Below are positions 6,940-15,435 of a stretch of DNA of 64,000 bases, piece by piece; positions within the stretch are counted from its first letter, which is position 1, and each line of letters starts with the position of its first letter. The translations under genes were made by a program, and so were the position numbers. The stretch comes from Propionimicrobium lymphophilum DSM 4903. Lineage in GTDB: Bacteria > Actinomycetota > Actinomycetes > Propionibacteriales > Propionibacteriaceae. The notes under the pieces were generated by a model that was not told the DNA's origin, searched no databases, and saw nothing but the letters and a program-made list of their open reading frames with translations. The stretch is from contig NZ_KE384026.1 of assembly GCF_000423485.1 (NCBI RefSeq), positions 171,583 to 235,582 on the forward strand. The letters run 5' to 3'.

Positions 6940-7665
6940 TTAAGAACGAAGTCGCTTAGCCTCGTCAACGGTTCGGTTCACCAAGACTTCTTGTGCGTCA
7001 ACCAGCGGGATTTGAGGCATCGGGAATTTCTCGTTTAGCACGCTCAATTCAGTGCACCCAAGAATTAGTACATCCGCCCGGCAATCGCCAGAAGGGTCGA
7101 GCATGTCGCTAATGACTGCCTCATAGCGATTGAAATTAATTCCGTTATTGCCTTTTACGTCGTCATAGATCAAAGACGTGACGCGGTCTTGTAGCTTTTT
7201 AGGCGGCTCAACGAATTCGTAACCAGCTTCTTCAACTGCCTGCTTATAAATGCCAGATTTCAAAGAACCTATCGTGCCAAGAAACCCGACACGGGGGAAC
7301 ATTTTTTGTGGGTAGCGTCGACGCATCTCGGCCACTGCGCCACGTGGCATATGGAAAATTGGGACGTCGGTAAGCGACTGAAAGTCATCGAAAAAATAAT
7401 GAGCAGTGTTGCATGTTAGGACGATGAAGCTAGCACCGATTTGAGTAGCCATTCGGATGTCATCTGCTATGACATCGAACGGGTTTTCGGTTGAGTAACC
7501 TTTTATGTATGAAGTCCTGTCGGGCACAGATGCGTCGTTGAAGACTACATAATCAAGGAAGTCTTGATCGTTACCTGCGTGTGTTGCCTGGTTTACGAGC
7601 CGAATGAAGCTCTCCGTAGCCAACGTTCCCATACCTCCGAGAACCGCAAAAAAAGGCCTTTTCAT
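6940..7665 (-). CDS. racD: Aspartate/glutamate racemase family protein (probable aspartate racemase)
   Basis: A 241-residue cofactor-independent racemase. Both catalytic cysteines are present, in VLTCNTAHYF (about residue 84) and LGCTEL (about 204). The N-terminal GGMGTLATESF motif is typical of aspartate racemases (GGMGPxAT). It would interconvert L- and D-aspartate in the cytoplasm. The strong GAGGAGAG site and a 50-bp gap to the upstream ATP-grasp ligase place both in one operon. This matches the racD-aslA pair known from enterococci and lactococci, where the racemase supplies D-Asp for the peptidoglycan cross-bridge. The activity is inferred from family and context. Confidence 0.82.
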   Translation of the reverse strand: MKRPFFAVLGGMGTLATESFIRLVNQATHAGNDQDFLDYVVFNDASVPDRTSYIKGYSTENPFDVIADDIRMATQIGASFIVLTCNTAHYFFDDFQSLTDVPIFHMPRGAVAEMRRRYPQKMFPRVGFLGTIGSLKSGIYKQAVEEAGYEFVEPPKKLQDRVTSLIYDDVKGNNGINFNRYEAVISDMLDPSGDCRADVLILGCTELSVLNEKFPMPQIPLVDAQEVLVNRTVDEAKRLRS

Positions 7666-7715: not shown

Positions 7716-8951
7716 TTATGATTTATCGCGGAAATGTTCAGCGTATCGTTTGCTGTAGATGGAGAACATTCTTCTAATCATCAGCCACCGGAGCGGGTTC
7801 ATGTCCTTGTGATATTCAAGAGTCGTACCCCAATCGCCGCGAGACATCATTTCTAGCCCCTTGCGCTTTTCATCGCCTTCAGCCACGTACCTCTTAAATA
7901 TCGAGCGAGGAATCTCCATCCAAAGCTTCTTACCGCGGCCGATAAGCGGTTCATCATCGAAGTCTGTTAGATCTACTAGGTCTTCTACAAAGTATTCAGC
8001 CAGATTGAACCCATTAAGCGTGACGAAATAGCTTGAGCGTCCCTGACGAAGGTTAATCTCAAAAAGCTTCAGCTTGCCATCTCGTTCATCGTATTTCATG
8101 TCGAAGTTGGCTACTCCGACGTAACTGATTTTCTCTAGGAAGTCCTTGATCTGTGCGCAGATTTCCTCGTTGTAATCGGGAATAATCGCGGCGTAGTTAC
8201 CGACCGCTTCCGGCGTCGGGTCTTCAAGTAGAGGGTGTCCGAGGAACATCATGCGGACTTTATGATTGCGGTCTACGTATGCGTTCAAGACGCGCATTCT
8301 GCTGTCATCGCCGGGGATGAAATCCTGAATAATCATTTCACCGCTGTACCCAGATTCATATGAGCGACGGATGATCATCTCTAGCTCCGAGGGATCATCA
8401 ATGATGAAAGCTTTCTTTCGGCCAGGAAAATCGATATCCAGCCATTCAGTCGAATTGGCAGGCTTCATCGCCACGGGAAAATCAAATGGCAGCTCTCGGT
8501 AGTCGCCATTGGCTACACCTTCAGAATCGACGATCTTTGTGGCAGGGTAGGGCAGCCCGTATTCCTCGCAAGTACGGTAAAAACTGCTTTTCAAACTGAG
8601 TTGACGGTTAAGATTCATCGGCAAGCTGTGAAAAGCGAAGTAGGGGCGCAACTCGTCACCACATTCGCTTAGAAGATTGGCATAGACGTCGCCGCAAGCG
8701 ATCAGGAGCAGTTTGGTGTCTGGGGCTGTTTCTTGCCGCTCTTTAGCGAACTCGATCAAAGTGCGCTTGAAACCAGGCAGCTCTCCAAATCCATCGACGA
8801 TGCGAACATCGATGATTTTGCTAAATTTTGTGGGCGAAAGTTGAAAATGAGCGAATGCTATTGATCTAATTCCGTACGTCTCGTGGAAAGCACGAGCCAT
8901 ACCATAAGCGTTGATATCGCTGCCCAAGATTACCGGTTGGAACTGGTTCAT
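7716..8951 (-). CDS. aslA: ATP-grasp carboxylate-amine ligase, probable D-aspartate ligase of peptidoglycan
   Basis: A 411-residue ATP-grasp enzyme. An N-terminal pre-ATP-grasp domain (LGSDINAYGMAR) is followed by an ATP-grasp core with the lysine strand FPVAMKPANS, the EMIIQDFIPGDD hinge, and the metal-binding end KLFEINLRQGRSSYF. Length and organisation match the Enterococcus faecium D-aspartate ligase family, which forms the amide between D-Asp beta-carboxyl and the L-Lys (or Orn) side chain of UDP-MurNAc-pentapeptide or lipid intermediates. The downstream racemase would make its D-Asp, and the divergent asparagine synthetase could amidate the product. AAGGAAAG precedes the ATG. Other carbamoyl-phosphate-synthase-like ligases are an alternative if context is ignored. 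Confidence 0.75.
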   Translation of the reverse strand: MNQFQPVILGSDINAYGMARAFHETYGIRSIAFAHFQLSPTKFSKIIDVRIVDGFGELPGFKRTLIEFAKERQETAPDTKLLLIACGDVYANLLSECGDELRPYFAFHSLPMNLNRQLSLKSSFYRTCEEYGLPYPATKIVDSEGVANGDYRELPFDFPVAMKPANSTEWLDIDFPGRKKAFIIDDPSELEMIIRRSYESGYSGEMIIQDFIPGDDSRMRVLNAYVDRNHKVRMMFLGHPLLEDPTPEAVGNYAAIIPDYNEEICAQIKDFLEKISYVGVANFDMKYDERDGKLKLFEINLRQGRSSYFVTLNGFNLAEYFVEDLVDLTDFDDEPLIGRGKKLWMEIPRSIFKRYVAEGDEKRKGLEMMSRGDWGTTLEYHKDMNPLRWLMIRRMFSIYSKRYAEHFRDKS

Positions 8952-9165: not shown

Positions 9166-11043
9166 ATGTGTGGAATCGTTGGCTATTTCAGTGAATCCTC
9201 CGAATCTGAAAAGCGTGCAGCCCTAAAGGCAATGACTGATGCGATTAAGCACAGGGGGCCTGATGCCTACGGAGAAATGATCGACGAACACATCGCGATG
9301 GGTTTCAGACGGCTGAGCATTATCGACCTCGACGGCGGTGACCAGCCGATAACCAATGAAGACGGCAACTTGGTGGTTACCGGTAACGGGGAGATCTACA
9401 ACTACCAAGTGCTCCGTGAACGTCTCATTGAGGCTGGCCACGATTTCGCAACGCACAGCGATGTCGAGGTTCTCGTGCATGGTTACGAAGAATGGGGCAC
9501 TGATCTACTTCAGCGAGTCCGTGGCATGTTCTCCTTCGTGATCTGGAACAAAAAAACCCAGGAGTTATTCGGAGCTAGGGATCACTTTGGCATCAAGCCT
9601 TTCTATTACGCCAACATGAACGGAACATTCATGTATGCGTCTGAGATTAAGGCCATGCTTCCGCACCCCGAATTCGTAAAAGAATTCAACGCAGAAGCGC
9701 TGAAACCTTATCTGACCTTCCAGTACCCGGCTATCTCAGAAACCTTCTTCAAAGGTGTATTCAAACTTCCGGAAGGTCACTACTTTAAGTACCGTGACGG
9801 GAAAATGAGTATCGAGAGTTACTATGACCCGAGCTTCCGTGAAACTAAACAGGATTTAGATACAGTCGTCGAAAATATCGATCAGGCTGTAAAGGAATCT
9901 GTTGAAACACACATGATTGCAGATGTGGAAGTTGGTTCTTTCCTATCTAGCGGCGTCGATTCGAGCTATGTTGCCGCGTTAGCACGTCCCGACAAGACTT
10001 ATTCCATTGGTTTTGCTAGTGGTAAGTACAACGAATCAGAGCAGGCTCACGAGCTCGCTGGCGTGCTGAATCTGAATAACACCACCTCGATCATTGACCC
10101 AGAAAAAGCTTTTAATACATTTCCGCTTATCCAATGGCACATGGACGAGCCAGATTCCAATTTTTCTTGCGTCCCCCTGTTCTTTCTTGCCGAACTTGCC
10201 GCTAAGGACCTCAAAGCGGTACTCAGCGGAGAAGGCGCAGACGAGCTATTCGCCGGATATGTTGACTACGGAGTTCATACGCACTCTAAGGTGATCAAAG
10301 TCTTCACTCGGTTGTGTAAACATCTGCCGGCGAAGATTCGACACGCGATCGCGAATTTCGCAAAGGGCAAGGCGTTCCATGGTGCGTTACACCTATACGC
10401 GAATCTCTCGCCAGCTGAAGAGAGCTTCATCGGACAATCTAGGGTGTTTGAGGAATCTGAGTCCGATCAGATCTTAAAGCCCAAGTACCGTAACGCGCCT
10501 AGCGTTCGCTCGATCGTCATGAAGATTTACAATCGAATCAAGAACAAGAATCTATCCGAGGTTAAGAAGAAGCAGTACCTGGATATGCATCAGTGGATGC
10601 CGGGAGACATTCTTCTAAAGGCCGACAAAATGACTATGGCTCACTCTCTTGAGCTGCGTGTTCCGCTGCTAGACAAAGAACTTATGAAGGTCGCCGAACA
10701 GGTACCAACTAAGTATCTGATCTCGGATGAGAACACCAAGTATGCTTTCCGGCAGGCTGCGGCTAGGCATATTCCTAAAGAATGGTATGACCGGGAGAAG
10801 CTCGGATTCCCCGTGCCGGTAAAAGAATGGTTGCGTGAAGAGAAGTATTACACGAAGGTTCGCGAGTCTTTCGCTAGCGATGTCGCCGCAGAATTCTTTG
10901 ATACAGAATCTCTGCTCAAGCTCGTGGACGATAACTACACCGGCAAAATTGACGAGCGGCACAAAATCTGGACTGTCTACACTTTCCTTGTTTGGTACAA
11001 CGTTTATTTTGTTCAGGACGGTTCTAAACCAGTAATTAACTAG
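9166..11043 (+). CDS. asnB: Glutamine-hydrolysing asparagine synthetase, AsnB/AsnH type
   Basis: A 625-residue protein with an N-terminal class II glutaminase domain (MCGIVGYF, Cys2 nucleophile; RHDHFG-like ARDHFGIKPFYY near 143) and a C-terminal synthetase domain with the ATP pyrophosphatase loop LSSGVDSS (about 261-268) and SGEGADELFAGY (about 356). It makes an amide from an aspartyl carboxylate using Gln and ATP. Length fits the Gram-positive AsnB/AsnH class. In Lactococcus an AsnH of this class amidates the D-Asp bridge residue of peptidoglycan. Being divergent from a D-Asp ligase/racemase operon suggests that role here, although free asparagine synthesis is equally compatible with the sequence. 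Confidence 0.85.
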   Translation: MCGIVGYFSESSESEKRAALKAMTDAIKHRGPDAYGEMIDEHIAMGFRRLSIIDLDGGDQPITNEDGNLVVTGNGEIYNYQVLRERLIEAGHDFATHSDVEVLVHGYEEWGTDLLQRVRGMFSFVIWNKKTQELFGARDHFGIKPFYYANMNGTFMYASEIKAMLPHPEFVKEFNAEALKPYLTFQYPAISETFFKGVFKLPEGHYFKYRDGKMSIESYYDPSFRETKQDLDTVVENIDQAVKESVETHMIADVEVGSFLSSGVDSSYVAALARPDKTYSIGFASGKYNESEQAHELAGVLNLNNTTSIIDPEKAFNTFPLIQWHMDEPDSNFSCVPLFFLAELAAKDLKAVLSGEGADELFAGYVDYGVHTHSKVIKVFTRLCKHLPAKIRHAIANFAKGKAFHGALHLYANLSPAEESFIGQSRVFEESESDQILKPKYRNAPSVRSIVMKIYNRIKNKNLSEVKKKQYLDMHQWMPGDILLKADKMTMAHSLELRVPLLDKELMKVAEQVPTKYLISDENTKYAFRQAAARHIPKEWYDREKLGFPVPVKEWLREEKYYTKVRESFASDVAAEFFDTESLLKLVDDNYTGKIDERHKIWTVYTFLVWYNVYFVQDGSKPVIN

Positions 11044-11210: not shown

Positions 11211-12638
11211 TTGTCAGATCCCATCGCCCAAGAGACTACCTCAGGTATCGATCAGCAGGGCATCGATCTAGTACCGACCAATCTTCGTCACGGAAAAGCA
11301 AAAGACCTATTTTTTCTGTGGGCCGGAACCACCACAAATATTTTTACTGTTTCGTACGGTGCGCTTCTCGTAATTCTTTTCGGATTGAGCTTCTGGCAGG
11401 CGATCATTGCGATCGTTATCGGTAATCTTCTTGCTTACCCACTTTTAGCTCTGGCTTCACTGCAGGGCCCGAAGACCGGCACCACCAACATGACCATCAG
11501 TCGTTCCAGTCTAGGGCCCCGTGGGGCAAGGGTGAACGGCCTGTTCTCCTGGTTAATGCTGCTTGGCTTCGAAGCCGCAGGTTTAGTGCTGGTCTACTAC
11601 GCAATTGCCGCTTTATTAGGCATCTTTGGCTTTCAGCTTAGCGGGGGATTACAGGTTGGTTTGATCGTCGTACTCGGTCTCATCCAGATGCTGCTTCCTT
11701 TGATCGGCTACAACTTCCTTATGGCAGCCCAAAAGTTCGCGACGATCATTTTTGCTTGCGCCTTCGTTATTCTCGCGGTTCTGATCTTGCCCAAGGCAGA
11801 CATTTCAGCTTCGCAGGGCATAGCAGGATCTGCCTCTGTCATCAGTGCTATTAGCTTTGTAATCGTTTCTGGTGGACTGAGCTGGGCTTGCTCGGGATCT
11901 AACTTCTCTAGGTATCTTCCGGCAAATACAAAGCTAACGGCTGTCGGAACTTGGGCCGCACTCGGCGGTTTCGTGCCGTACATGTTGCTCCAGAGCCTAG
12001 GCGCAGCAATGGCCACTGTTGCGGTTGGTCCGGAGGTGGATCTCAGCGATCCTCTCGCGGTTCCTGCAATTTTGCCGGCTGGATTCTCCGTTCCATTCTT
12101 GCTTTTAGTCGGTTTCGGCTTGATGGTGCAGAACGGGACTAACCTCTATTCGTCTTCGCTGAACCTCCAGACTGCTGGCATTCCCGCTAGGCGTCCGGTC
12201 GTGGTGGTTACCGACTCCGTTATTTGCATACTCATCACCTGCTTCGCAGTCGCCCAGTCTTCGTTCTACGGATTGCTTAGCGCCTTCGTTGGCTCGTTAA
12301 GCATCTGGTTGGCACCTTGGGTAAGTGTCTACTTGGTTGATTGGATTATGCGTCGCGGAAACTACGATCTTGCAGGCCTAATGAATGAGTCGGACGGGCC
12401 GTATTGGGGGCGCGGAGGTGTGAAATTTTCTGGATTCATCGCCCTAATCGTCGGCATGATCGTGTCTGCGCTGTTTGCCAATACTGGCTATTTCATTGGC
12501 CCGATCGCAGCGGTGATGTCGCCTGATAACCCATCTTTTGCAGCCGATCTTGCAATTCCAACAGGCATTCTGACAAGTGGAATCCTCTACTGGGTGCTGA
12601 ATGCCTCTAACAAAAACAAAAACTTGGGACTCGCGTAG
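11211..12638 (+). CDS. NCS1-family nucleobase permease (cytosine/purine permease type)
   Basis: A 475-residue integral membrane protein with about 12 hydrophobic segments. NCS1 features include the early LRHGKAKDLFFLWAGTTTNI block and GPKTGTTNMTISRSSLGPRG in the region of helix 3, and a SNFSRYLPA segment. These carriers import cytosine, purines or related compounds with H+ or Na+. The TTG start is supported by AGGAGACAAC directly upstream. Two deaminase-family genes follow at 32 bp and 8 bp, so the substrate is presumably an amino-substituted nucleobase that the two enzymes process after uptake. Confidence 0.82.
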   Translation: MSDPIAQETTSGIDQQGIDLVPTNLRHGKAKDLFFLWAGTTTNIFTVSYGALLVILFGLSFWQAIIAIVIGNLLAYPLLALASLQGPKTGTTNMTISRSSLGPRGARVNGLFSWLMLLGFEAAGLVLVYYAIAALLGIFGFQLSGGLQVGLIVVLGLIQMLLPLIGYNFLMAAQKFATIIFACAFVILAVLILPKADISASQGIAGSASVISAISFVIVSGGLSWACSGSNFSRYLPANTKLTAVGTWAALGGFVPYMLLQSLGAAMATVAVGPEVDLSDPLAVPAILPAGFSVPFLLLVGFGLMVQNGTNLYSSSLNLQTAGIPARRPVVVVTDSVICILITCFAVAQSSFYGLLSAFVGSLSIWLAPWVSVYLVDWIMRRGNYDLAGLMNESDGPYWGRGGVKFSGFIALIVGMIVSALFANTGYFIGPIAAVMSPDNPSFAADLAIPTGILTSGILYWVLNASNKNKNLGLA

Positions 12639-12670
12639 AAAACGCTTCCGAAAAGAGCAAGGAGGAGAAA

Positions 12671-14431
12671 ATGCCGAACAGGCAACTACTCGATGTGGCC
12701 TACGGTAGGGCACACGCAGAAAAAATTATTAAGAACGGTAAGTTGGTAAACGTTCTGACCGGTGAAATCTATCCGGCGGATGTAGCAATTGCTGATGGCT
12801 GTGTCGCCGCAGTTGGCGACGTTTCCGCTCAGCTTGGCCCTGATACCGAAATCATCGATGCCGAAGGACGCTACCTGACCCCGGGCCTTATCGACGGACA
12901 TCTGCACATCGAATGTTCCAAACTGTCAGTGACGATGCTTGCCGATATGGTTTCGCGTTACGGAACAACCTCCGTTATTTCGGGACTAGACCAAGTTCTG
13001 GTTGCTGCCGGCATCGACGGAGTTAAAGAATTCCTGGCAGAGGCAGAAAAGTCTTCTATGCACGTTTGGTGGGGCGCACCCGCCAAGGCTCCATACACCA
13101 TTCCGGAATCCAACGTCGGCTTTCCGTTTAAGGCGGAGGATCACAAGATCGCTCAGGACATGCCAGAGTGCGTCGGCCTTTGGGAAACGGTCCAAGAGAT
13201 GGTTGAGGACGGCGATGAAGACGTCCTAGCTGCGATGGATCTTGCGGAAAAGAACCGTCTACACGCGTTCGGCTGCGCTCCTCTCGTTGATGCTCGCCGA
13301 GTTGCTGGGTATGCGGCTTCCGGAGTTGTGCTTTGTCACGAGTCTTACTCTCCGGAAGAAGAGCTAGAAAAGATGCGTAACGGCATCGACATCATCATTC
13401 GTGAGTCCACCGCAGCTCCGATGCTTCGGGACAACATCAAACTGATCACCGAGATGGGTGCTCCTAGCGATCGAGTCGGTTTCTGCACTGACGACATCAC
13501 ATCCACCGACGTTCTGACCCGTGGCCATCTGGACTACGTAGTTCGGCTAGCGATCGAATGTGGCGTAACCCCGATGCAGGCAATTCAGATGGGCTCCATC
13601 AACACTGCCCGCATGTACAAGCTCGATCACAAGATCGGTGCTATCGCTCCTGGACGGTTCGCTGATATTCTCTTCGTCGACGATTTGAACGACTTCCGTC
13701 CTGCGAAGGTTATGACGGCCGGTCGGTTTGTCGCAGAAAACGGAAAGTCTCTCAAGTCTCCTGTTGCTCCTGAGCGCACCCCCGTTGTGGCAGACACATT
13801 TAAGTTGAAGGAGATCGATCCCGCTCGGATAAAGGTAACCGCTGAAGGATCGAAGGCTCTCGTTCAGGCCATTGTTCTGAGCAAGGACGTGGCCTTCCGC
13901 CGTCCAGGCGCACAGATCGAACTTGATATCGTAGATGGAGTTGTGCAGCCGGATGTCGAAAAGGACGCCATCATGGTTGCCGTCGCAGAGCGCTACGGAA
14001 AAACAGACAATCTCCCCGTTGCGTTTATAAACGGATTTGGCATTAAGAAGGGTGCGATCGCGACATCCAACTCTCCCGATGACAACAACGTGGTGGTTGC
14101 CGGAACAAACGCTGAAGACATGGCTTTGGCAATTAACGAGGTCGACAAGCTAGGCGGCGGACAAGTTGCTGTCGCTGATGGCAAGGTTATCGGGAGCCTT
14201 CCGCTTCCGGTGGCCGGAATCGTTGCTGACATTCCAGCCGAAGAGATGTCGAAGGCCGAGCGCGAATTGGATCGCATCGCCCGTGACGAGCTTGGCAGCG
14301 ATCTGCCTTCACCATTTGGCCAGCTGCTTTTCCTTTCGATTACCGCCATCCCCGAATGGGCAATTACCGACCTCGGCCTGATCGATTGCGTTAAGTTTGT
14401 AGTTGCGGACCCCGTAATCGAGAGCAAGTAG
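12671..14431 (+). CDS. Adenine deaminase (Ade, COG1001)-family amidohydrolase with altered signature residues
   Basis: A 586-residue protein with the two-part Ade layout: an amidohydrolase barrel (about 1-360) and an Ade C-terminal domain (about 380-580). It keeps the metal HxH in DGHLHIECSKLS (about 75), HE in VLCHESY (about 222), RESTAA, FCTDDITSTD and IGAIAPGRFADI. However, several blocks normally constant in Ade are changed. The DPHEIANV-type block reads SGLDQVLVA (about 108), IESSM reads IECSK, and AHDSHN in the C-terminal domain reads SPDDNN (about 463). It may therefore act on a substrate other than adenine. A strong AGGAGG site precedes the ATG, and it lies between the permease and a second deaminase in one operon. 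Confidence 0.75.
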   Translation: MPNRQLLDVAYGRAHAEKIIKNGKLVNVLTGEIYPADVAIADGCVAAVGDVSAQLGPDTEIIDAEGRYLTPGLIDGHLHIECSKLSVTMLADMVSRYGTTSVISGLDQVLVAAGIDGVKEFLAEAEKSSMHVWWGAPAKAPYTIPESNVGFPFKAEDHKIAQDMPECVGLWETVQEMVEDGDEDVLAAMDLAEKNRLHAFGCAPLVDARRVAGYAASGVVLCHESYSPEEELEKMRNGIDIIIRESTAAPMLRDNIKLITEMGAPSDRVGFCTDDITSTDVLTRGHLDYVVRLAIECGVTPMQAIQMGSINTARMYKLDHKIGAIAPGRFADILFVDDLNDFRPAKVMTAGRFVAENGKSLKSPVAPERTPVVADTFKLKEIDPARIKVTAEGSKALVQAIVLSKDVAFRRPGAQIELDIVDGVVQPDVEKDAIMVAVAERYGKTDNLPVAFINGFGIKKGAIATSNSPDDNNVVVAGTNAEDMALAINEVDKLGGGQVAVADGKVIGSLPLPVAGIVADIPAEEMSKAERELDRIARDELGSDLPSPFGQLLFLSITAIPEWAITDLGLIDCVKFVVADPVIESK

Positions 14432-14439
14432 GAGTAATA

Positions 14440-15435
14440 GTGATTTCATCATTCGTACAGAAGCTTCCGAAGGTTGAGCTTCACCTCCACATCGAGGGCA
14501 CGCTTGAGCCAGAACTCAAGTTCAAACTCGCTGAACGCAACGGCATCAAGCTCGACCAATCAACTCCGGACGAGGTCCGTGAGTCTTATGACTTCGATGA
14601 TCTTGCCTCGTTCCTCGACGCTTATTACGACGGCATGAACGTTCTTCGCACTTGCGAAGACTTCTACGATCTTGCGATGGCATACCTATCTAAGGCTGCC
14701 GAACAAAACGTCCGCTACGTCGAGATTTTCTTTGATCCGCAGGCCCATACTTGCCGTGGCGTTTCATTCGACACGGTCATCAGAGGTCTACACCGTGCCC
14801 AGTTGGATGCAGAAAAGAACCTGGGCATCAAGTCGGCTCTTATCATGTGCTTCCTCCGCGATTTCCAGGCGGAATTTGCGATGGCCACTTTGATGCAGGC
14901 TCTTGATTACAAGAACTGGATTGTGGGCGTCGGCCTCGATTCCGACGAGACCGGAAATGCTCCCGACAAGTTTGCCGATGTTTTCGCTAGGGCACGTCAG
15001 GAAGGCTTCCTGCTGACGATGCACGCCGACGTGGACATCAAGGATTCCATCGAACATATTCGTCAGTTGATTGAGGAGATCAAGGTCGACCGCATCGACC
15101 ACGGCACGAACGTGATCGAAAACCCGGAGTATGTCCAGTACTTAATCGATAACAAGGTCGGCCTGACCAGCTGCCCGATCTCAAACACATGGGTTTCCGA
15201 TGGCTCGAAGATCAAATTGGTCAAGGAGCTAGTCGACAAGGGCGTTAAGGTATGCATCAACTCCGATGATCCCGCCTACTTCGGTGGATACATTGGTGAG
15301 AACCTGCAGCTAGTGACAGACGAGCTTGGCAGCGACGAAGAATTCCTCAAGCTGCTCTGCTTGAACGCGGTTGATATTTCTTGGGCGTCTCCGAGCCTTA
15401 AGGAAGAGATCCGAGCTGAGATTAAATCCTGCTAA
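14440..15435 (+). CDS. Adenosine/adenine deaminase-family protein (Add/Aah1-like) lacking the usual HAGE
   Basis: A 331-residue TIM-barrel deaminase of the ADA superfamily. HLHIEGTLEPELKF (about 15-28) resembles adenine deaminases of the Aah1 type, followed by VDRIDHGTN, CPISNTWVSD and NSDDPAYFGGY in normal order. The block that is HAGE in classic adenosine and adenine deaminases, where Glu is the proton shuttle, reads HADVDIKDS (about 195), so the catalytic Glu is replaced. It belongs to a divergent subgroup whose substrate I cannot name. GTG start with TAGGAG upstream; the gap to the preceding gene is 8 bp. It is last in the operon, followed by a strong terminator. Confidence 0.75.
   Translation: MISSFVQKLPKVELHLHIEGTLEPELKFKLAERNGIKLDQSTPDEVRESYDFDDLASFLDAYYDGMNVLRTCEDFYDLAMAYLSKAAEQNVRYVEIFFDPQAHTCRGVSFDTVIRGLHRAQLDAEKNLGIKSALIMCFLRDFQAEFAMATLMQALDYKNWIVGVGLDSDETGNAPDKFADVFARARQEGFLLTMHADVDIKDSIEHIRQLIEEIKVDRIDHGTNVIENPEYVQYLIDNKVGLTSCPISNTWVSDGSKIKLVKELVDKGVKVCINSDDPAYFGGYIGENLQLVTDELGSDEEFLKLLCLNAVDISWASPSLKEEIRAEIKSC

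Follow-up and report, generated by a model that had tools for sequence, protein, structure and literature searches.

Why should one operon join a permease to two unrelated deaminase-family enzymes, both with altered catalytic signatures? The question arises in Propionimicrobium lymphophilum DSM 4903 (assembly GCF_000423485.1; genome of 2.04 Mb), in a 64,000-nucleotide stretch of contig NZ_KE384026.1 (positions 171,583 to 235,582), referred to here as the window. On the + strand at 11211–15435, an NCS1 permease gene is followed by the gene for a variant COG1001 protein, which together with its relatives we label ADEv, and by that for a COG1816 enzyme of the kind labeled HxDVD, as these proteins read HxDVD where others read HAGE. 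ADEv and the HxDVD enzyme are a real, conserved pair of subfamilies in a purine cassette, uncharacterized as far as the literature searched goes. From their sequences and genomic settings, we lean towards reading the operon as a cassette for purine-base uptake and deamination, in which an adenine-deaminase-type partner stands beside a distinct hydrolase, ADEv.

An interpretation made from the DNA letters alone (the sequence-only reading) had placed a permease, a COG1001 enzyme, and an ADA-superfamily enzyme in one operon with intact frames, and this is borne out by the open reading frames (ORFs) and Pfam matches. All three ORFs, including those of both enzymes, are uninterrupted; the gaps between them are 32 and then 8 bases, and AAGGAG-type ribosome sites precede the permease and ADEv genes. 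The permease scores above the cut-off of the NCS1 family PF02133 (Table 1) and below that of TIGR00800 (106 bits against 353). Among the loci fetched, the closest relative for the operon genes is Gleimia europaea (ADEv 91%, COG1816 protein 85%, permease 83%). The identical three-gene order is found in loci of Actinobaculum massiliense, Arcanobacterium urinimassiliense, Gleimia, Leucobacter, Ruania, Microtetraspora, Pseudonocardia, and Streptomyces.

How far has ADEv departed from adenine deaminase? Canonical Ade (TIGR01178; E. coli AdeD and A. tumefaciens Atu4426, 3NQB) has the same Amidohydro_1 and Adenine_deam_C domains, with a full-length fold match, and shares with ADEv the HxH, bridging Glu, HE, DD, and purine Arg residues. 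ADEv differs in that DPHE is replaced by GLDQ or GLDE, the strand-5 His by Cys, ES[SGA]x by ECSK, and HDSH by PDDN. The altered blocks quoted in the sequence-only reading are present as HLHIECSK (residues 77–84), SGLDQVLVA (104–112), and SPDDNN (468–473). Its statement that the remaining metal motifs are intact applies to H77, H79, E172, H223, and D275, but it overlooked C202, which lies within GCAPL where canonical Ade has GHxPG and is a larger change than those it quoted. Amidohydrolases seldom have Cys where a His would bind metal, and its occurrence at a metal-ligand position is of mechanistic interest. In excerpts of PMC12133300, the metal ligands of YerA are given as His87, His89, Glu179, His210, His231, and Asp283, and the purine-binding Arg as Arg260 in Atu4426 and Arg252 in YerA. 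ADEv R244 matches this purine-binding column.

To follow these residues, 89 ADEv sequences were aligned, namely the window copy and 88 from loci (80 from named genomes and eight on plasmids). From the scan of named genomes, the best 80 of 481 relatives were retained, so that more distant members lie outside the sample. The canonical-type comparison set held 62 proteins, 61 from the ADEv loci plus E. coli AdeD. All 89 ADEv have H77, H79, E81, C82, S83, K84, G105, L106, D107, W134, P141, Y142, W171, E172, H223, E224, R244, D274, and D275, together with P469, D470, D471, and N472 in the C-terminal domain; column 202 has Cys in 88, the exception being a Ser in L072. In the comparison set, DPHE is found in 62/62, and the strand-5 His and HDSH in all 61 rows reaching those columns. 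The alignment thus suggests that a rebuilt active site is under strong purifying selection, and on this evidence the signature changes are not drift.

Structure prediction, proposed earlier as a check, gave confident folds for both enzymes (predicted local distance difference test, pLDDT, of 95 for ADEv and 92 for the COG1816 protein). The AlphaFold model of ADEv (pLDDT 95.2; predicted template modeling score, pTM, 0.93) is closest among solved structures to the adenine deaminase 3nqb, with a Z score of 45.3 and a root-mean-square deviation of 2.9 over 572 residues. The VIA-align rows besides two Ade entries span only about 310–350 ADEv residues and are uninformative on the C-terminal domain.

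A family likeness of this kind does not make ADEv an adenine deaminase. It belongs to the broad COG1001/Adenine_deam_C family by its PF01979 and PF13382 matches and the two-domain fold of 3NQB. Against the Ade equivalog TIGR01178 (cut-off 472.5), the window protein scores 368.8 bits and two other ADEv score 363.7 and 380.8, all below the cut-off, while two partner Ades score 502.1 and 644.5, above it. Where an adenine deaminase has DPHE, strand-5 GH, and HDSH, ADEv reads GLDQ, GC, and PDDN. Nor is it a member of the YerA N6-methyladenine deaminase subfamily, as it lies outside that clade and has lost the strand-5 GH; with the guanine deaminase model GuaD (TIGR02967), it reaches 31.8 bits against a cut-off of 375.4. 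In a tree of 82 COG1001 proteins (24 of the 89 ADEv and 16 of the 61 cassette Ades, with 18 further rows dropped for thinning), ADEv is a single clade outside both the YerA clade and the branch of AdeD and cassette Ades. Support was 100 for the ADEv and YerA clades in the Shimodaira–Hasegawa-like approximate likelihood ratio test (SH-aLRT), the only support measure of this quick search, in which some deep branches are poorly supported. Genome G384 supplies the nearest outsider to the clade, a variant of greater divergence (L124/L184). Across the trees for both families, neither enzyme fell within a clade of characterized adenine deaminases, the placement that the sequence-only reading had named as telling against it. 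A recent tandem duplication of Ade was set aside, given that ADEv is a clade of its own and that two distinct groups were found among the 16 cassette Ades in the tree. ADEv is very likely not an ordinary adenine deaminase.

Several other COG1001 variants were seen along the way. The divergent relative in G384 (L184, 6987–8828) reads HPESTK, AALDE, and GTMD and lies downstream of two ABC permease genes. Proteins in L125 and L218 (6471–8234) have HPES, TDLHE, and HDNHN, and that of L125 groups with ADEv and not with Ade (support 92). L135 and L143 hold a subfamily without ESS, DPHE, or HDSHN (HAYHSY/HMYHSY, DGIYG/DGFYG, NAVCE).

The simplest account of the locus would be that both enzymes are adenine deaminases with drifted motifs, a redundant pair. 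Their folds are those of solved adenine deaminases, and public records label ADEv relatives "adenine deaminase" or "adenine deaminase C-terminal domain-containing protein". However, the replacement residues are invariant across phyla, ADEv falls below the equivalog cut-off and outside the Ade clade, and one would not expect redundancy to be maintained next to a canonical-type Ade, which ADEv accompanies in 57 of the 80 kept loci. We consider this account quite improbable.

The company that ADEv keeps is the second line of evidence. Within 8 kb of ADEv, a deaminase partner was found in 71 of the 80 kept loci: a canonical-type Ade in 57, an HxDVD ADA in 14, and neither in nine. When only the 52 loci that extend 8 kb or more to each side are counted, the corresponding numbers are 40, nine, and three. 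Genome searches for the nine exceptions recovered a canonical-type Ade in eight (that of L119/L225 reads DSHE) and an HxDVD enzyme in A. suis (L109), which lies elsewhere in the genome, away from ADEv. A partner is thus present in 80/80 genomes behind the kept loci, a canonical-type Ade in 65 and an HxDVD ADA in 15. Including the plasmid loci, there are 79 ADEv–partner pairs, and 72 are co-stranded. ADEv itself is rare: own or center genome aside, no match above 38% identity was found in 396 Actinomycetota, 196 Clostridia, and 190 Alphaproteobacteria genomes, in many of which only the first few candidates were scored. At the thresholds used, and with the own or center genome included, COG1001 proteins were found in 128, 45, and 24 of these, respectively.

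On the ADEv tree, the partner changes type at least four times (shuffled mean 17.3), each time between two unrelated families, and HxDVD partners occur in lactobacilli, Actinomycetota, Sneathiella, and Dongia. This exchange of one family for an unrelated one at a single place in the cassette is our chief argument that the two partner types do the same job. ADEv loci span Actinomycetota, Pseudomonadota, Bacillota, and other groups, and include clostridia, lactobacillus plasmids, and rhizobia. Lactobacillus plasmids L011, L014, and L015 carry a set of ADEv, an NCS2 permease, and an HxDVD enzyme, with genes for transposases or integrases close by (in L014, IS3 flanks it), and because of these neighbors the set looks mobile.

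Could ADEv be a non-catalytic or regulatory partner, such as a subunit or purine sensor of the deaminase? The co-occurrence in 80/80 genomes, the altered metal ligand C202, and the loss of DPHE would fit such a role. Unlike in a decayed site, however, HxH, E172, H223, D274, D275, and R244 are invariant in 89/89, and in some cassettes the partner comes from a different family, COG1816, which makes a single conserved interface unlikely. This role is the least probable of those we weighed, and we regard it as very unlikely.

What, then, is the COG1816 partner? The sequence-only reading took it for an ADA-type enzyme in which HAGE, with the proton-shuttle Glu, had become HADV. H195-A-D-V198 is indeed present, but the change is not a bare Glu-to-Val replacement, as HADVDIKD has a two-residue insertion relative to HAGE. 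The aligned column of the HAGE Glu holds Ile in the window protein and Gln in most relatives, and the window protein has extra Asp residues at 197 and 199, plus D169. It lacks the HAGE proton shuttle (HADVD) while matching the A_deaminase family and fold; its AlphaFold model has a pLDDT of 92.0 and a pTM of 0.90. H[AC]D[VI]D and DSDE stand in 20/20 COG1816 partners, which are those of 18 ADEv loci, that of A. suis (L109), and that of the window. The 396 Actinomycetota genomes gave 40 COG1816 matches, of which 30 were read: 28 have HAGEEG with DS[SATG]E, and the two of the other kind are the window genome's own and that of G384 (HCDVHQ). In a tree, 23 HxDVD sequences split from 30 HAGE rows with SH-aLRT support of 100, and 99 with the motif columns removed. 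The window genome has no second PF00962 protein at E 0.001. Among the public records examined, the sole annotated HxDVD relative is named "adenosine deaminase".

The best sequence matches of this protein are the COG1816 adenine deaminases Pa0148 (3ou8) and AAur1117 (3rys), at 302 and 260 bits. They are also the best fold matches of its model, with a template modeling score of 0.87–0.93 and 41–47% identity. They differ from it in reading HAGEE and DS[SA]E where it reads HADVDIKD and DSDE, and it lies in a clade apart from the HAGE rows tested. According to excerpts of PMC13296781, the cytokinin deaminase Patl2390 (cog1816 Group 3) acts on N6-methyl- and N6,N6-dimethyladenine and not on adenine; it is of the same COG as the window protein.

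These observations allow a mechanism to be proposed. The NCS1 permease would import a purine base. The HxDVD enzyme would most likely convert adenine or a close analogue to hypoxanthine and ammonia, since it holds the place of a canonical-type Ade in most related cassettes. As its metal residues and purine Arg are kept, ADEv is likely an enzyme with a purine-like substrate. It would be a separate metal-dependent hydrolase that keeps the purine Arg and most of the metal site in a rebuilt pocket with a Cys at a ligand position. That pocket, together with the score below the Ade equivalog, makes plain adenine an unlikely substrate. A modified adenine, N6-substituted as a first guess, would be acted on instead; the guess comes from YerA, which lacks DPHE and HDSHN yet acts on N6-methylated adenine compounds (PMC12133300, in excerpts). 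As a substrate assignment drawn from sequence, a modified adenine is doubtful. Both enzymes would converge on hypoxanthine, which the cell could salvage.

The likeness to YerA deserves some care. In excerpts of the two papers, YerA is said to act on N6-methyladenosine and reportedly N6-methyladenine (PMC12133300), and YerA and Bh0637 belong to COG1001 subgroup 2, N6-methyladenine or N6-methyladenosine deaminases (PMC13296781). The YerA clade, like ADEv, is without DPHE and HDSHN, and Trp stands at column 134 in 30/30 YerA-clade rows, all ADEv, and 3/62 canonical proteins. It differs from ADEv in keeping the strand-5 His, mostly as GHFPG, and in having HxH-P in all but one row, which has HxH-ST. 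Two other clues to the substrate were set aside. A carboxylate-bearing substrate, such as a t6A-type base, was considered from K84 and K139; however, Lys 84 also occurs in ESTK rows with otherwise canonical motifs, and K139 is variable (Lys in 79/89). A Ser after the purine Arg (RxS) cannot mark N6-substituted substrates, as the adenine deaminase Atu4426 has it too.

The transporters of the cassettes vary. NCS1 relatives of 36–83% identity are found in 14 of the 88 ADEv loci, and elsewhere the transporter is NCS2, BMP-type ABC, or a membrane protein, with none of these in 12 loci, several of which are on short contigs. The membrane protein lies near ADEv in 22 loci; the copy in L090 (11773–13329; 519 residues) has no Pfam or NCBIfam match, and the type is perhaps an unrecognized nucleobase permease. 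Cassette NCS2 permeases are 36–66% identical to E. coli AdeQ, annotated "adenine transporter", and those of Leminorella and Budvicia, at 64–66%, accompany an Ade as in the E. coli adeQ–adeD locus, which lacks ADEv. Among regulators near ADEv, similarity clusters named from one representative each are LysR-type in 20 loci, AraC-type in nine, and LacI-type in eight, some a few kb off. The proposal that the altered residues define clades that co-occur with this permease therefore holds in part: they do define clades, found together with a nucleobase-type transporter elsewhere, but the permease is not constant.

Might the two enzymes act in sequence on one imported non-standard amino-purine? For example, ADEv could release adenine from a modified form by removing a group, and the partner could then deaminate that adenine. 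The co-occurrence of a partner in 80/80 ADEv genomes would be best explained by such a strict sequence, and catabolic-type regulators (LysR, AraC, and LacI) lie near groups of cassettes. However, the NCS2 permeases, which resemble an adenine transporter, would have to carry the modified base, and HxDVD enzymes also occur without ADEv nearby. We judge a two-step route rather unlikely.

Alternatively, ADEv may deaminate guanine, isoguanine, or 8-oxoadenine, and the cassette would then handle adenine and a second base. The retained purine Arg is compatible with this, and a COG1001 variant with Asn for the strand-5 His shows a comparable association in three clostridial genomes. This variant (L215, 10720–12528; L216, 1457–3265; L217, 8308–10128) reads GNAPE, retains DPHE and HDTHN, and shares a cluster with a canonical Ade, an NCS2 permease, and subunits of a molybdopterin dehydrogenase of the xanthine-dehydrogenase type, in parallel to the pair in the window. 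The xanthinase pathway was considered as well, but excerpts of PMC12507026 and PMC3519856, neither of them its primary paper, do not name a COG1001 xanthinase. Of 49 ADEv genomes searched for a COG0402 GuaD, 23 have a strong match (>330 bits), so ADEv is no simple replacement for it. The displacement of guanine deaminase was set aside, if weakly, with GuaD above its cut-off in 17 of the 49 and at 333–369 bits in six more. A second base of this kind is an unlikely answer in our estimate.

Several points weigh against the uptake-and-deamination cassette that we favor. The 80 kept loci are non-independent samples. A model of parallel substrates does not by itself predict that ADEv is never without a partner, and in E. 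coli an adenine transporter and Ade form a set alone. The YerA clade is separate from ADEv with full support, and the shared W134 is weak evidence. HxDVD enzymes without ADEv nearby occur in L010 and L013 (a search of the L013 record found no ADEv), and G384 has an HxDVD-like COG1816 enzyme with only the more divergent ADEv relative in its genome. In G384, the HCDVHQ protein (L183, 5736–6767) has a BMP protein and ABC genes as neighbors and is on a different contig from that relative. Finally, because 20/20 COG1816 partners are HxDVD with Asp 169, 197, and 199 and none is HAGE-type, the substrate of the HxDVD partner may be other than plain adenine.

The sequence-only reading had concluded that both are functional enzymes with shifted substrates. 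Intact frames, confident predicted folds, and separate clades agree with this, but the partner may carry out plain adenine chemistry; as it is a canonical-type Ade in 57/80 loci, only ADEv may have a shifted substrate. A bolder version is possible, which we put forward tentatively and with less than even confidence. ADEv would be a new COG1001 activity, a Cys-liganded two-domain modified-purine hydrolase used only beside an adenine-type deaminase, and the HxDVD enzyme would likewise be new in activity, with an Asp pair in place of the proton-shuttle Glu adapting it to the same pathway, so that the two would form one unrecognized modified-purine route. No characterized ADEv or HxDVD enzyme was found in the open-access literature searched, which included excerpts of PMC12133300, PMC13296781, and PMC13054789.

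Table 1. Genes of the operon and altered or retained active-site features, in window coordinates.
Feature	Position	Strand	Evidence or comparison
NCS1-family permease, 475 amino acids, TTG start	11211..12638	+	PF02133 (Transp_cyt_pur) 147 bits, cut-off 23.5
ADEv, 586 amino acids, variant COG1001 amidohydrolase	12671..14431	+	Amidohydro_1 (PF01979) 81.7 bits; Adenine_deam_C (PF13382) 181 bits
COG1816 adenine-deaminase-like enzyme, HxDVD clade, 331 amino acids, GTG start	14440..15435	+	A_deaminase (PF00962) 246 bits
ADEv H77-L-H-I-E-C-S-K84	12899..12922	+	Metal HxH retained; ECSK for canonical ES[SGA]x
ADEv S104-G-L-D-Q108	12980..12994	+	Stands where canonical Ade has xDPHE
ADEv E172, bridging metal ligand	13184..13186	+	Homology to YerA Glu179
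ADEv C202	13274..13276	+	Replaces strand-5 metal ligand His (YerA His210, E. coli AdeD H214)
ADEv P469-D-D-N-N473, C-terminal domain	14075..14089	+	Replaces HDSHN/HDSHH
COG1816 protein D167-S-D-E170, DSDE loop	14938..14949	+	HAGE rows have DS[SATG]E
COG1816 protein H195-A-D-V-D199	15022..15036	+	Replaces HAGE, two-residue insertion

Upstream of the operon, the window holds genes for an Asp/Glu racemase-family protein (6940–7665), an ATP-grasp-like protein without a Pfam match (7716–8951), and a divergently oriented asparagine-synthetase-like amidotransferase (9166–11043), perhaps a small peptide or cell-wall pathway. Inclusion of the last as a fourth member of the operon was not supported: of ten window genes tested, only the operon genes were found in L018–L023, and L026 has, besides the operon genes, an MtrA-like match of 37% identity. 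A role in defense or phage biology was likewise rejected, with no PHROGs match and a single PADLOC match, CARF_ADA, to the COG1816 protein (81.8 bits).

With a fixed ADEv signature and a partner in 80/80 genomes, the substrate question is directly testable with a small assay panel. If the bolder version is true, an unrecognized route for the salvage or catabolism of modified purines would have been spread by gene transfer through bacteria of several phyla. Given that it occurs, for example, in clostridia, in rhizobia, and on lactobacillus plasmids, the cassette may be relevant to purine traffic in gut, food, and soil settings.

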